Positions 39,507-45,906 of a DNA stretch of 64,000 nt are shown in pieces; the first letter of the stretch is position 1, and the number at the start of each line of letters is the position of its first letter. The notes under the pieces were generated by a model. The model did no database searches. It had not been told where the DNA came from and saw nothing but the letters and a program-made list of their open reading frames with translations. The stretch is from Affinundibacterium baiyunense (lineage in GTDB: Bacteria; Pseudomonadota; Gammaproteobacteria; Burkholderiales; Burkholderiaceae_D): the NCBI RefSeq assembly GCF_018139645.1, contig NZ_JAGSPM010000001.1, forward strand, positions 62,001 through 126,000, in the 5' to 3' direction. Position numbers and translations under genes: made by a program.

Positions 39507-39583
<77 letters not shown>

Positions 39584-39863: not shown

Positions 39864-40145
39864 TTATTCTTCAATTCTCCATTTTTCATTTCGCAAATTA
39901 AAATATTGATCAAGTGCAGTAAGAATTTCGTCTTTAGCCACAGCGCTAATAATCAAATCATTTGGGTCATTCGCTTCATTCCATTTTTCCATTGAAGACA
40001 ATCTTACAATCCTTCCTCGCTTAAAAAAACCGGGTTCAAAATCAACCCAAATTAGAACTTGGAAGCCATCCTTAGAATATTTAAGTGTTTCCTTGTCTAT
40101 CCATTCGACAGTGCTTCCATTTTCAACATATCTTAAATTAGACAT
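39864..40145 (-). CDS. Orphan candidate immunity protein (Imm74-like, tentative)
   Basis: 93 residues from the ATG at 40145 (GAGAAAGTG upstream); an in-frame GTG at 40151 is less likely. Acidic and soluble, with a beta-rich N-terminal half and a C-terminal helix (AKDEILTALDQYFNLRNEKW). Its size, acidity and pattern recall small polymorphic-toxin immunity proteins, perhaps Imm74, but this is a from-memory comparison. It sits directly after what may be the last codons of a deleted toxin and in line with two Rhs-immunity modules. An unrelated small protein cannot be excluded. Confidence 0.5.
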   Translation of the reverse strand: MSNLRYVENGSTVEWIDKETLKYSKDGFQVLIWVDFEPGFFKRGRIVRLSSMEKWNEANDPNDLIISAVAKDEILTALDQYFNLRNEKWRIEE

Positions 40146-40248
40146 ATTCACTTTCTCTTATGGCACATATTTCACAGGAATACCTCTGACTAAATCCTTG
40201 CGCATCGAAGCGCACAAACATAGCTTGGCAGACGTGGCGGAGCGTAAG

Positions 40249-40332
40249 ACATAATGTTCGTTATGCGAGATTGAACCACTAAGTGAAGCGCAGCGTAACG
40301 ACTGGGCCAATTTTGCATAGCGGGTGTTATGT
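40249..40332. repeat. attC-like imperfect palindrome
   Basis: Left ACATAAT (40249-40255), 5-base spacer, TTATGCGAGA; right TTTTGCATAG, 5-base spacer CGGGT, GTTATGT (40326-40332). Outer boxes pair 6 of 7 and inner boxes 7 of 10, with equal 5-base spacers. This geometry matches integron attC sites (R''-L''...L'-R'). No integrase gene is in the window, so the identification is tentative. Confidence 0.4.
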
Positions 40333-40532
40333 GAACATCGCGTAGCGATTTCCCCCGTAATGGCTGTGCTTTTGACTTCGCTTTTGAACTTGCGTAGCAC
40401 TTCTCTGACTACTGGCATAGCGCAGCGGCAAACGAGGCACGAGTGCGCTTTGTGCTTTCTGTTTAGGGTCTTTGCTCTTCGAAGCCGCGATCATTTAGCG
40501 TCGCATATCGCTAGCTTGGCGCACTCCTTGCC

Positions 40533-40583
40533 CCGTGTGTCTAATCAAATTCTCTGCACGGATCGCAAGGACTGTGACAAGCA
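40533..40583 (-). repeat. Dispersed repeat copy A (CHxxCxPCR-coding)
   Basis: About 50 bases that match 42982-43032 at roughly three positions in four, in the same orientation. On the minus strand one frame reads CHSPCDPCREFD-stop-THGA, against CHTHCKPCRMIDQAHGA in copy B. Conserved Cys/His/Arg/Gly positions suggest a formerly coding sequence. Confidence 0.5.
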
Positions 40584-40624
40584 GTTTGTGGAGTAAGGTT
40601 TTTCTCCATTTGCCGAGAGTATCC

Positions 40625-40650
40625 GCGTGGGCAAAAAATCTTGCCCACGC
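40625..40650. repeat. Stable hairpin downstream of the membrane immunity candidate
   Basis: GCGTGGGCAA (40625-40634) and TTGCCCACGC (40641-40650), with outer CCGAG (40613-40617) / CTCGG (40653-40657) extending it. No T-run follows on the minus strand, so it is not a standard terminator; it could be a REP-like or recombination-related palindrome. Confidence 0.6.
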
Positions 40651-40667
40651 TACTCGGACTACGGGTC

Positions 40668-41012
40668 TTAGAAACAACCAACTGACTGAATCCAGATACC
40701 AAATCCGATCAATATAATTAAAATAAATATTTGAATACCAAACCACCGTCGAATCTTCCATCCGAGCGACACCAACTCACGATTATTAATATCATCAAAT
40801 CTGCCGTTGGAAATTCTTTCATATTGCTCACGAACAAAATCGTTAGTCCCAACATCGTCATTAGTGTCATTCGAATGATATTCTGCCTCTCGTCTTTGCA
40901 ATGTTGCAACTGAATTGCAAAATTTCATGAAAATTAAATACGAGAAAAATCCAGAAACCAAAAGAAGAAATAAGAAGAAAATCCAAGAACCAGTTATGAC
41001 ACGACATGACAT
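40668..41012 (-). CDS. Two-helix membrane protein, candidate immunity protein
   Basis: 114 residues with an excellent ribosome binding site (GAGGTGTGAA before the ATG). Two strong membrane helices, about 8-32 (WIFFLFLLLVSGFFSYLIF) and about 90-112 (IQIFILIILIGFGIWI), enclose a polar, Asp/Asn/Arg-rich middle of about 55 residues. It begins 23 bases after the stop of the upstream Rhs module, the standard place of an immunity gene. A membrane location would suit protection against a membrane-acting toxin. No family recognised; the immunity role rests on context. Confidence 0.6.
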   Translation of the reverse strand: MSCRVITGSWIFFLFLLLVSGFFSYLIFMKFCNSVATLQRREAEYHSNDTNDDVGTNDFVREQYERISNGRFDDINNRELVSLGWKIRRWFGIQIFILIILIGFGIWIQSVGCF

Positions 41013-41035: not shown

Positions 41036-43000
41036 TTAAGGTTGGACTGGAGCATCATGTTTAAACGTCCAGCCAACTGCTGGACCTGGTGCTACTATTC
41101 CAAAGACAAAGTTATTGGAAGAGCGAGCCATACCAAATGCAGCTTGAACGCCACCGCTGTGCGTTCCATTCCCCGTGGATACTGCTAGGCTTGTCGTCAC
41201 GCCAAACTTACCCACACCTGCCGCAGTTGAAGCCTTGACTGTAAGGCCGCTTATATCCCCAATTTTGGCTTGCCCCTCAGTAACATTTTGGATTGCCAAA
41301 CTTGGAGCCCTTACTCCAACAAATGTGGAACTCGATTTATCTTCTTTAACCGTATGCGAAACCTCTATCGGGCCAACGTTAACCTGTGTTTTGTTAGCGC
41401 CACTTCCCGAGATCGGTACTGGAGCTACATTTTCTTTGATAGCACTTACAATTGTTTTTAGCACTTTAGTTACCTCAGTATGCGGTGCTTTATATGGCTC
41501 GTCTAAGTTACAACTTTGCCTACCATCAGGATCAATATACTTATACGGATTGTTGAGTGCATAAGTATACCGATTAAAACTAGCGCCATTATTGTTGTCG
41601 GTGAGTACAGGATCAGTGGAGAGAAACCGCCCCGCGACGGGATCATAGTACCGCTGCTGCATATACGTCAATTCTGTATCACTGTCGTTGTAGTGACCTG
41701 TAAATCCTATCGTCGGTTTGTCAGTACCTGCAACGGTCATTCCATAAGCTTCATACTTCGTTTGTTTAATCCGAACGCCACTAGCATTGGTTTTGGCGAC
41801 TGGACTGCCTAAGCCATCGGTGTGGAGGTAAGTCACCGTTTCTGCATTGGCGCCATTGACTGTTAAATCAATCGCAAGATTTGTCGCACTGCTTGCTGCT
41901 GGTACGCTACTGATACTGAGTGTGCCTGTGTAGTTGCCTGCTGTAGTTCCTGTACTCACAACGACTGTGCCGCAAACGGTATTGGCGGCACATGCTCCCG
42001 TCGGACCAGTCGTGCTCATCCCAGCCAGCGTGCTGTAGCTGATGCTGCTAATGGCAACGGTACCTGTGTTCTTGTGGCTGCAAGTCGTGCTCGCTTTGTT
42101 GGGTGTCGTGGTGAAGTTGTTGCTGGTACAGCTGAGTAGACTCAGAGTGGGGGCACCTGCAGCTGTATTCACCGTGAGGTTGATACCAGTCACTGCGGCT
42201 GTGCCTGTATTGGGCGTGACCGTTAAGTTGCCTGTGTAGTTGCCTGCTGCGGTGTTGGTGGTGACCGTAACATTGCCGCAGGTACTGTTGGCGGCACAAC
42301 TGCCTGTCGGCCCACTGGCTGTGGTACCTGCAGGGGCGGTGTAGCTGATGCTGCTGACTGCCGTTGGTCCTGTGTTGCTGAGGGTACAGGTGCTACTTGC
42401 AGGGGTAGGGCTAGTGGTGTTATTGGTGCTGGTGCAATTACTGAGATTGAGTACTGCCGCACCTGCTGATGCAACCGTCATGTTGATGGCTCTGGTCGCA
42501 GCTGTGCCGGCATTGGGGGTAGCTGTATAAGTACCTGCGTAATTGCCTGCGGTGGTAGCGGTGGTTAAGGTGATGTTGCCGCAAGTGCTGTTGGCGGCAC
42601 AGCTACTGACTTGGCCTGTGATACTTACGCCTGCAATGCTGCTGTAGCTGATGCTGCTCGCTGCTGTTTGTCCTGTGTTGCTGAGGATGCAGGTGGTGAC
42701 AGCTGGTGTTGGGCTGGTGGTGCTGGCACCACCTGAGCAACTAAAGCTTAATGCCGGTGGCGTGGCTGCCGCATTGACGGTGAGGTTGATGCTGGTGCTG
42801 GCGGCTGTGCCCGTATTGGGTGTCGCAGTATAGGTGCCGGCGTAATTGCCTGCTGCGGTGCCTGTAGTGAGGGTGATGTTGGCGCAGGTGCTGTTAGCGG
42901 CACAGCTACTAACTTGGCCTGTGATACTGATTCCTGCGATGCTGCTGTAGCTGATGCTACTCGCTGCTGTTTGTCCTGCTCCGTGCGCCTGATCAATCAT
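41036..43000 (-). pseudogene. Truncated Rhs tip module 1 with unrecognised C-terminal toxin-like domain
   Basis: 654 codons open. Residues about 1-385 are four Ser/Thr/Ala-rich surface repeats of about 100 residues (CxLSNTGxTAxSSISY, CAANSTCGN, TAGNYxGT, LTVN). About 390-493 is the Rhs core (YLHTDGLGSPVAKT, YEAYGM, GFTGHYNDSDTELTYMQQRYYDPVAGRFLS, NNPYKYIDPDGR). The last 160 residues are variable, Gly/Ser/Val-rich, without a named domain. There is no signal peptide, and the first repeat is cut at its 5' end, fused to unrelated sequence (MIDQAHGA). It is therefore an orphan or silent tip cassette rather than a complete effector. The two-helix membrane protein at 40668 follows. Confidence 0.75.
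41636..42684 (-). repeat. Long direct repeat, copy 1
   Basis: About 1.05 kb that recurs at 44483-45531, offset 2847 bases. From about 41640 to 42500 the copies appear almost identical (I noticed a single base difference at about 42465); from 42500 to 42684 they differ more. It encodes the surface repeats and first half of the Rhs core. The identity stops within the core, upstream of the variable C-terminal domain. Confidence 0.9.
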
Positions 43001-43032
43001 TCTGCACGGCTTGCAATGCGTGTGACAAGCGA
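42982..43032 (-). repeat. Dispersed repeat copy B (CHxxCxPCR-coding)
   Basis: Same-orientation partner of 40533-40583. It lies at the broken 5' end of Rhs module 1 and supplies that frame's accidental start codon (Met of MIDQAHGA). Confidence 0.5.
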
Positions 43033-43154
43033 ATTGTTACACTTAGCTTCTTCTTTATCTTCCGAGTAAATCAACGGTTGAGATGGTGCAATAGATGAAG
43101 CCAATTGCACCTTACCAGCTCCTTACGTCTTACGGCCTTTAAGACCCCATGCCT

Positions 43155-43886
43155 TTAACGCCATCGACTCACTAACTCATCATAGTCGTCAAAATTATCG
43201 GCCTTTTCTAATAGCGCCTCAACTGACCGAATCGAAAAAATGTTCTCTGTATTTTTACATATCACATCCAATTTATCGACATTTTCTCGCCACTCAGTGG
43301 CATCGTCATAAAAAACCAGTTCATGCAATGAATTACTATTCACTGATATTACCCGCTTTGCTTCAGATATAAGCTGATCAAACGGCAGTCTATACCGCTC
43401 AATAGCCGCACTGGAAAGCAATGTATGCCAATATAAACCTGGAAGATATTTATTCAAGTCTCTTCCTAGCCAATCTTCAATATTATTATGTCCAATTTTT
43501 TTAAAATATCTGTTTCTATGCTCATATTCATTTATATCGCATGCATATCCAAAAAACGGATTGAGGACTGCTAAACATAAAAAGAAATCAGGTATGAGAT
43601 TACTCAATCGGACATCAGTCAAATCCATTGAAATTTCAGAATATTGAATCGATCTTATTGTGATATTAAATAACGCACCATTTCGTGAATGCAAAAAAAA
43701 ACCAGTTTTATTTTCCAAAGCAAATTCTTGAAATTTTTCGAGATCGGATAACAGATTTTTACGAGGTATTTTTCTATCAGAATCAGAAAAGTATAAAGGT
43801 CGAATCGATTCAGGTAATTGCAGTAGGCAATTCACCAACATCAGAGAATTGCTATCATTAAAAAAATAAATATTTGCTGAGATCAT
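43155..43886 (-). CDS. Candidate immunity protein for the Rhs nuclease module
   Basis: 243 residues, soluble, AT-rich compared with its neighbours. Its ATG overlaps the TGA of the upstream Rhs module (ATGA at 43883-43886), so it is translationally coupled to the toxin domain. No catalytic motif is visible; features are an N-terminal ISANIYFFNDSNSLMLVNCLLQLP, a central FGYACDINEYEHRNRYFKK and an acidic C-terminal helix region. I do not recognise a Pfam family. The immunity role is inferred from coupling and position. Confidence 0.65.
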   Translation of the reverse strand: MISANIYFFNDSNSLMLVNCLLQLPESIRPLYFSDSDRKIPRKNLLSDLEKFQEFALENKTGFFLHSRNGALFNITIRSIQYSEISMDLTDVRLSNLIPDFFLCLAVLNPFFGYACDINEYEHRNRYFKKIGHNNIEDWLGRDLNKYLPGLYWHTLLSSAAIERYRLPFDQLISEAKRVISVNSNSLHELVFYDDATEWRENVDKLDVICKNTENIFSIRSVEALLEKADNFDDYDELVSRWR

Positions 43887-45547
43887 TTTTGCGGTCCTAA
43901 ATCATCGCGTCTAATAATTCGATCAAACGCTTTCTCTGCGGGTTTAGTTACATGAGTTTTCTGACCTGTAACTAAGACTGATTCTTTACCAGATGCTTTA
44001 GCTGCCTCGGTTTGGATACGTACTTGCTTAGTACATGCAACACATGCCGCGTCTTTAATTTCGACAGATTTTGTCGCAGTCATTCCATCAGGAATTGATT
44101 TTCCTTCTGCAGTACTAACTGACTCAGTATTTTTCTTCAAGCCCATTTCTGATAAAACTTTTTCCTCCGAAGCTTTCCCTCGACTGGTAGCTTCTTTAAA
44201 AGTTTCACGAGCAGCACCCATGATGATGCTTCGGGCTAAAGCAACAATGCCGCCACCATAGGCCACTGCCATTGTCGTCAATACTCTGCCTGAACATGTT
44301 GCATCCCCATGACAAGGATCAGACATCTGATAGCTAGGATTTGTGCCGTAAAACATCGCACTGTCGCGCCCATCAGGATCAATAAAACGATAAGGATTAT
44401 TGTTAGCGTACACGTACCTGTTGAAACTAGCACCAGTGTTACTGTCCGTGAGCACAGGATCTTCACTCAGAAATCTACCCGCCACAGGATCATAGTACCG
44501 CTGCTGCATATACGTCAATTCTGTATCACTGTCGTTGTAGTGACCTGTAAATCCTATCGTCGGTTTGTCAGTACCTGCAACGGTCATTCCATAAGCTTCA
44601 TACTTCGTTTGTTTAATCCGAACGCCACTAGCATTGGTTTTGGCGACTGGACTGCCTAAGCCATCGGTGTGGAGGTAAGTCACCGTTTCTGCATTGGCGC
44701 CATTGACTGTTAAATCAATCGCAAGATTTGTCGCACTGCTTGCTGCTGGTACGCTACTGATACTGAGTGTGCCTGTGTAGTTGCCTGCTGTAGTTCCTGT
44801 ACTCACAACGACTGTGCCGCAAACGGTATTGGCGGCACATGCTCCCGTCGGACCAGTCGTGCTCATCCCAGCCAGCGTGCTGTAGCTGATGCTGCTAATG
44901 GCAACGGTACCTGTGTTCTTGTGGCTGCAAGTCGTGCTCGCTTTGTTGGGTGTCGTGGTGAAGTTGTTGCTGGTACAGCTGAGTAGACTCAGAGTGGGGG
45001 CACCTGCAGCTGTATTCACCGTGAGGTTGATACCAGTCACTGCGGCTGTGCCTGTATTGGGCGTGACCGTTAAGTTGCCTGTGTAGTTGCCTGCTGCGGT
45101 GTTGGTGGTGACCGTAACATTGCCGCAGGTACTGTTGGCGGCACAACTGCCTGTCGGCCCACTGGCTGTGGTACCTGCAGGGGCGGTGTAGCTGATGCTG
45201 CTGACTGCCGTTGGTCCTGTGTTGCTGAGGGTACAGGTGCTACTTGCAGGGGTAGGGCTAGTGGTGTTATTGGTGCTGGTGCAATTACTGAGATTGAGTA
45301 CTGCTGCACCTGCTGATGCAACCGTCATGTTGATGGCTCTGGTCGCAGCTGTGCCGGCATTGGGGGTAGCTGTATAGGTACCTGTGTAATTGCCAGCAGC
45401 GGTAGCGGTGGTTAAGGTGATGTTGCCGCAAGTGCTGTTGGCGGCACAGCTACTGACTTGGCCTGTGATACTCACGCCTGCAATGCTGCTGTAGCTGATG
45501 CTGCTCGCCGCTGTTTGTCCTGTGTTGCTTAAGGTGCAATCCGCCAA
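43883..45547 (-). pseudogene. Truncated Rhs tip module 2 with PD-(D/E)xK nuclease domain
   Basis: 554 codons open. Residues about 1-290 are two and a half surface repeats, about 293-393 the Rhs core ending IDPDGR, then about 160 variable residues. The variable part begins with a pretoxin-like segment (VLTTMAVAYGGGIVALARSI) and ends in a compact domain with IPDG near 484 and VEIKD near 494. These give the PD...ExK active-site pattern of restriction-like nuclease toxins, followed by QVRIQTEAAKASGKESVLVTG. The 5' end is broken: homology to module 1 stops at residue 4 or so, and there is no signal peptide. I read it as an orphan cassette with an intact toxin end. Confidence 0.75.
44483..45531 (-). 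repeat. Long direct repeat, copy 2
   Basis: Partner of 41636-42684 in the same orientation. Such a repeat pair can recombine to delete one module with its immunity gene, or convert one core by the other. Confidence 0.9.
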
Positions 45548-45768: not shown

Positions 45769-45775
45769 TTCATAG

Positions 45776-45814
45776 AAAAAAAGGATCGTCGACTTTGTCG
45801 ACGATCCTTTTTTT
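45776..45814 (+). terminator. Terminator behind the tRNA remnant
   Basis: GGATCGTCGAC (45783-45793) and GTCGACGATCC (45797-45807) with flanking A and T tracts. Its place directly after the tRNA-Arg-like 3' end suggests it once terminated a tRNA transcript. Confidence 0.85.
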
Positions 45815-45906
45815 ATACATGATTTTAAATTCAAAATCGTTGATTACTTTTAGTGTAAAGCGAGTCGCCTTGCTTTATTAAAACGCTTAAATTTCCAAGA
45901 ATATTT

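Follow-up and report, generated by a model that had tools for sequence, protein, structure and literature searches.

Polymorphic toxins of the Tox-REase-7 family carry the motif residues GxxxE, IxD, ExK and Q, lie at the C-terminus of Rhs proteins and are followed by an immunity gene, as described in the available sections of PMC3482391. The immunity partners given there are ImmHEAT, Imm23 and Imm54, and in the corresponding sections of PMC8285248 ankyrin proteins are proposed as partners in Campylobacter. Solo toxin cassettes are mentioned as well, and the lineage list in the sections at hand contains no beta-proteobacteria (PMC3482391). A further arrangement is known from the orphan rhs-CT/rhsI modules of Salmonella LT2, i.e., Rhs fragments without start and export signal that are joined to an immunity gene and can stand in series; their toxin is expressed only after recombination with the main gene (excerpts of PMC3967940). 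Here, we report on a stretch of 64,000 nucleotides from Affinundibacterium baiyunense (contig NZ_JAGSPM010000001.1, positions 62,001 to 126,000; the window), in which two truncated Rhs modules, A and B, likewise stand in series. As judged from its sequence, module A together with the gene behind it very probably represents an orphan Rhs toxin-immunity cassette, consisting of a Tox-REase-7 nuclease and its cognate immunity protein, which has lost its 5' part and whose toxin is probably silent.

The toxin of module A and the gene behind it

Module A is a 5'-truncated Rhs tip on the minus strand (43883..45547) that comprises immunoglobulin (Ig)-like repeats, the last Rhs core and a variable C-terminal region. 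A first-pass annotation had counted it as the second Rhs module; in transcription order it is the first of two. The C-terminal 100 residues form a predicted toxin domain of the PD-(D/E)xK type (43886..44185, minus). The Pfam family Tox-REase-7 (PF15649) matches residues 457-536 with 27.2 bits at a cut-off of 25, and all four motif elements known from the family (PMC3482391) are present, namely GKASE (GxxxE), IPD (IxD), EIK (ExK) and then Q. These elements are invariant in all five aligned toxin rows, the window included, and relatives of the toxin match PF15649 with 29.7, 40.4 and 31.4 bits. The stretches IPDG, VEIKD and QVRIQTEA, from which the first-pass annotation had recognised a restriction-like nuclease, indeed lie within the last ~75 residues of the Rhs frame, and both the profile score and the four-element motif support this family assignment.

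The next gene, P0001 (43155..43886, minus), encodes a putative immunity protein of 243 residues. Its start and the stop of the toxin share the four bases ATGA (43886..43883). With a G+C content of 33.6%, P0001 is more AT-rich than the repeat and core part (53.0%) and the C-terminal part (43.9%) of module A. Stretches of 732 bases were sampled across the window, and only 0.3% of them have a value as low. Both the overlap and the base composition had been noticed correctly at the outset.

To follow the gene pair, we used a scan with the Rhs core, which found 359 relatives; the best 80 of these, corresponding to 79 loci, were retained. In Luteimonas gilva (locus L100), a toxin of 60% identity over 120 residues is directly followed by a P0001 homologue of 237 residues (28% identity over 226 residues, E 1e-28), which overlaps the TGA of the toxin (TTGA) if its TTG is the start. 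A search of IMG/VR with the alignment of P0001 and this homologue returned two contigs, L161 and L162, which we count as one because their immunity proteins are identical. The toxin of L161 is 69% identical over 99 residues and is followed, with a GTGA overlap, by an immunity protein of 238 residues that is 31% identical over its whole length. When aligned, the toxins of L. gilva and the IMG/VR contig are 66-69% identical to that of the window and the immunity proteins 27-31%. Three lineages hence share this gene pair including its four-base overlap, and the immunity protein diverges much faster than the toxin. As the pair recurs in this manner, the assignment of P0001 as cognate immunity protein of the module A toxin is well supported, in line with the strong pairing by context that had first been proposed. 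Moreover, a profile match above the family's own cut-off and recurrence in two other lineages make the observation more than chance.

The L161 locus also displays the toxin on a separate tip. Here, a shell open reading frame (ORF) of 1907 residues, an FG-GAP protein, a tip of 332 residues with a signal-peptide-like start and the immunity gene share one contig, which is classed as virus and also has tail genes as judged by reading of its ORFs. In L166, 15 kb read from an IMG/VR contig that is classed as viral, a split Rhs set with the toxin and the immunity family of the window adjoins tail-like genes and is perhaps prophage cargo.

Both partners are rare in the samples searched. At family level, 391 other genomes were searched without meeting the toxin of the window; genomes with a PF15649 score above cut-off numbered 2 among 369 in the class and 3 among 398 in the phylum, each count including the genome of the window itself. 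Among 97 other relatives, the immunity family gave one weak match of 42 residues in a frame interrupted by stops; it occurs in 1 of 297 genomes of the L100 family, which is L100 itself (0/296 others), and in none of four other genomes named by locus. Plasmids and phages yielded no further relatives, and a third viral scan returned only the same two IMG/VR contigs. A peptide-pattern search of genome contigs also found none, which means little because L100, although part of that collection, escaped it. Away from this toxin, we did not meet the immunity family in these samples.

Several points weigh against the cassette as we read it. Structure prediction, proposed early on as a check of the nuclease fold, was run for both proteins and gave AlphaFold models too weak to settle either fold: from 2 and 4 sequences, the mean predicted local distance difference test (pLDDT) scores were 49.6 for P0001 and 49.4 for the toxin, and Foldseek with the toxin model had no match at E ≤ 0.001. 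The second half of that model, a strand (ExK)-helix (Q)-strand arrangement, is somewhat better than the rest. Behind two more distant toxins, at L125 (52% identical) and L145 (46%), the neighbouring gene is a different one, encoding 139 and 138 residues, respectively; P0001 is therefore not the partner of every toxin in the group. Because tip and shell are fused in L. gilva, the toxin does not depend on the split form of Rhs genes described below. Finally, a shell gene could fall into a gap of the genome, a draft assembly with 91 contigs. The neighbours in L125 (935-1351) and L145 (3996-4409), which look alike by eye, constitute a second unnamed immunity candidate behind related Tox-REase-7 toxins.

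P0001 had been taken to belong to no known family, which holds for Pfam and NCBIfam; even at E ≤ 10, no Pfam family was returned for any of four members of the immunity family. Models for Imm52, DUF3396, Imm23 and Imm54 are probably among those of Pfam. Sequence searches of the PDB with P0001, with its profile and with the ORFs of L036, L039 and L051 revealed nothing convincing. The latter ORFs, of ~250 residues behind other Tox-REase-7 toxins, were tried as relatives of P0001 and rejected at hhalign probabilities of 8.1% and 3.3%; a PGxxW-like motif of P0001 is in register with those of L039 and L051, for which we do not claim remote homology. P0001 also appears to differ from ImmHEAT, Imm23 and Imm54 and from the Campylobacter ankyrin proteins, as far as these are covered by the sections consulted (PMC3482391, PMC8285248). 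Its length, initially judged long for this role, is not unusual given homologues of 237 and 238 residues and Imm52/TsiT chains of 228 and 241.

Rather than forming a family of its own, P0001 might be a far relative of the TsiT (Imm52) or TsiV (DUF3396) immunity proteins, which we consider plausible at somewhat below an even chance. According to the available sections of PMC9635880, TsiT and TsiV3, the latter close in fold to PA0821, are immunity proteins against PD-(D/E)xK effectors, so that effector and immunity protein would be of a similar kind to those of the window. The best Foldseek match of the weak P0001 model is the type VI secretion system (T6SS) immunity protein PA0821 (E 7.1e-3, probability 0.85, template modelling (TM) score 0.30), with nothing at E ≤ 0.001. 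Among the 50 matches listed by VIA-align are four Imm52/TsiT or TseT-complex entries (Z 6.4, 5.7, 5.1 and 5.0; root mean square deviation 3.4, 4.5, 4.7 and 3.7 over 115, 129, 130 and 116 residues), and the length is similar to that of P0001. However, unrelated rows reach Z 7.1, the model has the low pLDDT given above, the TsiT/TsiV effectors are T6SS substrates, and no sequence similarity between their immunity proteins and P0001 was detected. The Imm52/TsiT resemblance of the model is a lead only. As a family of its own, P0001 would represent a name-worthy immunity family for Tox-REase-7, for which the list of known partners is still incomplete.

The orphan state of the cassette

The open frame of module A extends from 45556 to 43883 (minus), and its earliest possible start is a TTG at 45547, which would yield 554 residues. 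An in-frame stop lies directly 5' of 45556, and the frame opens inside an Ig-like repeat as judged by eye; the TTG is not preceded by a ribosome-site-like stretch (by eye), and none of seven possible starts before the core satisfies our signal-peptide rule. The Rhs-associated core (YLHTDGLGSPV...FIDPDG; 44369..44683, minus) matches TIGR03696 with 78.1 bits at a cut-off of 32.5, and an RHS/YD repeat shell within the same protein is absent from modules A and B. Neither did we find a shell elsewhere in the genome (99.45% complete), where PF05593 had no match, a shell query returned 0 matches and a query with P0002 matched only this array. The lack of a convincing start, export signal and shell was not part of the first-pass annotation and adds to it.

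The cassette resembles the orphan modules of Salmonella LT2 in that a core fragment with toxin and immunity gene stands without start and export signal (PMC3967940, in part). It differs in that a main rhs gene upstream, or a shell, was not found in the draft genome, and in that the active form itself is a separate tip gene in some relatives. We take the toxin as silent because, by analogy, the LT2 orphan toxin needs recombination with a main gene; as no main gene was found, the genome offers no visible partner for reactivating it. Modules A and B are thus probably orphan cassettes.

These features suggest the following picture, in which family, motif, overlap, conserved pairing, truncation and the failure to find a shell come from the sequence itself, and nuclease activity, direct binding, silence and any benefit are inferred. 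In relatives, such tips would be made as separate signal-peptide proteins beside a long Rhs shell gene. The tip of module A has lost its 5' part including start and export signal and, with no shell found, the toxin would probably be silent. If made, its C-terminal 100 residues would cut nucleic acid (DNA or RNA) through an I-x-D/E-x-K metal site, and the immunity protein, whose gene would be translationally coupled to the toxin stop through the overlap, would bind and block the toxin directly. The pair may be kept because recombination can draw on it, or because it protects against kin in which the toxin is still in use.

Rather less likely than not, both genes are unexpressed remains of a split Rhs locus that has been lost, and serve no function at present. 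Neither module has a good start, no shell or intact tip was found, and promoter-like sites between 43000 and 45950 on both strands are not in excess (5 found, 5.7 expected), all of which would fit such a decayed remnant. Against decay, neither the toxin motif nor any part of the immunity frame is disrupted, and both can be aligned with distant homologues over their full length. That P0001 is an accessory protein of the toxin (chaperone or adaptor) is highly improbable: chaperones adjoin some Rhs genes and the position of P0001 alone would fit, but it lies downstream and overlaps the toxin stop, its sequence changes faster than that of the toxin, and more distant toxins have a different ORF in its place, as expected of immunity genes.

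Upstream of module A, between it and a DUF4124-like gene, lies a 45-base self-complementary stretch (45773-45817; 89%) with T runs, which resembles a terminator; the terminator scan lists none there.

Split Rhs genes in relatives

Taken alone, the pair of the window is a new pair within known kinds, and most of the interest lies in the split architecture of its relatives. A tip query matches 25 of 43 Undibacterium genomes and a shell query 14 of 43 (E ≤ 0.001; ordinary fused Rhs genes included). In Undibacterium G006 and G024, a shell ORF of ~1340 residues ends with YIYL..H.IAEV, and the next ORF, which opens with a signal-peptide-like stretch, carries core and toxin; in G024, several of these tips follow one another. 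In other genomes the shell is divided as well, so that three ORFs result; those of G012 have 776, 475 and 795 residues, with RHS repeats in the first two.

To quantify this arrangement, we inspected 80 loci (the 79 Rhs-core loci and L161) with 97 core occurrences. Forty-two are fused, with shell sequence or long upstream frames, and 31 are split with a signal-peptide-like start; the remainder comprises 18 short occurrences without such a start, one of which (L090) has impossible coordinates in the count, and six at a contig edge. Since only the best 80 of 359 relatives were kept, the split share holds for this sample only. Shell-like sequence lies in another frame or ORF ≤ 5 kb upstream of 22 of the split tips and is lacking for nine. 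As a control, none of the 42 fused proteins passes the signal-peptide rule within 150 residues before the core (one, L110, passes 165 residues before it). The rule is a coarse one, passed also by 1168 of 6200 N-termini after shuffling, and therefore mostly reflects a hydrophobic make-up.

For the spacing of the genes, L161 (whose signal-peptide score fails the cut-off of 2.0 and passes at 1.8) and L168 were added by hand to the 31 split tips. Measured from the stop of a preceding ORF of ≥ 250 residues, 15 of these 33 tips start at a distance of ≤ 30 bases and 25 within a range from 60 bases before to 150 bases after it. L168 is a complete plasmid of Alteromonas mediterranea, on which an RHS repeat protein of 1328 residues, a tip of 290 and a next ORF of 207 are annotated as three separate genes with four-base overlaps. 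Both the RHS repeat protein and the tip open with a signal-peptide-like stretch, and in the tip the core follows at once. Together with ribosome-site-like bases before many tip starts (by eye), the signal-peptide-like starts speak for separate starts of shell and tip rather than a programmed frameshift. Counting against a general split are a single gene of 1551 residues in Alteromonas macleodii and a 963-residue frame at a contig end in Undibacterium G012 that holds both shell and core start.

We further calculated a tree from 56 of the 73 split and fused core rows, leaving out within-locus repeats, short fused rows and L115. The split label requires 6 changes on this tree compared to 18.7 in shuffles (0/500 as low), and the starred branches force at least 4 changes. 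The split state is thus clustered and has changed several times, with the proviso that at least six rows labelled fused look split within the shell. Such an apparent split within the shell is seen in L106, L108, L117, L120, L130 and L146, where a second ORF with signal-peptide-like start lies near the stop of an ORF of 597-940 residues. The five loci L074-L078 (Undibacterium G036, G004, G012, G042 and G039), have Rhs genes in three ORFs with the shell cut; as judged by eye from the first 40 residues, the signal-peptide-like start is on the second ORF in most and on the third in L076.

The Rhs shell of Tc/ABC toxins consists of two polypeptides, TcB and TcC, and the cut between them lies elsewhere than in the split Rhs tips. 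As described in parts of PMC7861908 and PMC11067744, these toxins likewise have a shell of several polypeptides, carry the toxin on the C-terminal one and take cargo from separate loci. The split tips differ in that they hold the last Rhs core and toxin only, some with Ig-like repeats, have their own signal-peptide-like start and in part stand in arrays. Our search of titles and abstracts of the open-licence literature, whose coverage is partial, found no report of separately exported Rhs tips, and they may be published.

We tentatively propose, at close to even odds, that many Proteobacteria encode a long shell and a short tip (last Rhs core and toxin) with their own signal peptides, which would be exported separately and assembled later. 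Tips arrayed with their immunity genes would then be interchangeable warheads, and the window would hold an orphan warhead, a nuclease with an unnamed immunity family. If split Rhs genes work as they look, toxins could be exchanged without gene fusion, and any signal-peptide tip could be loaded into a common shell, which would therefore explain the tip arrays. For work on how an Rhs toxin gets into the shell, the split tips would also provide small parts that can be expressed separately.

Module B and the remaining array

Module B (41036..43000, minus), the second 5'-truncated tip, opens inside the same type of Ig-like repeat as module A. In the part that both share, protein identity is 97% and DNA identity 96% (1171 bases), and the C-terminal region, which has no family match, differs from that of module A. 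The core matches TIGR03696 with 75.8 bits (cut-off 32.5), and none of six possible starts before it satisfies the signal-peptide rule. Behind module B, an ORF of 114 residues (40668..41012, minus) with two hydrophobic segments (by eye) and no family above cut-off is a candidate immunity gene, and the two could form a membrane-acting pair.

The array further contains two inter-cassette stretches, neither of which has an Rfam match (40180-40600 and 43001-43154). The longer element (40152..40667, minus) has copies of ~70-79% identity in other Undibacterium genomes; 25 matches are spread over nine of 43 genomes, among them the own one, and 13 of the 24 matches outside the own genome lie ≤ 3 kb downstream of a tip core on the same strand. 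Its role is perhaps in recombination. The shorter stretch, between P0001 and module B (43001..43154, minus), has copies of 153-165 bases with 84-87% identity in tip arrays of Undibacterium G024 and G031. Behind the longer element, an ORF of 95 residues (39864-40151, minus; 33.3% G+C, no family) is perhaps an orphan immunity gene. The array is bordered by a tRNA-Arg (TCT) gene on the plus strand (39507-39583), the sole known RNA there; tRNA genes border many genomic islands.
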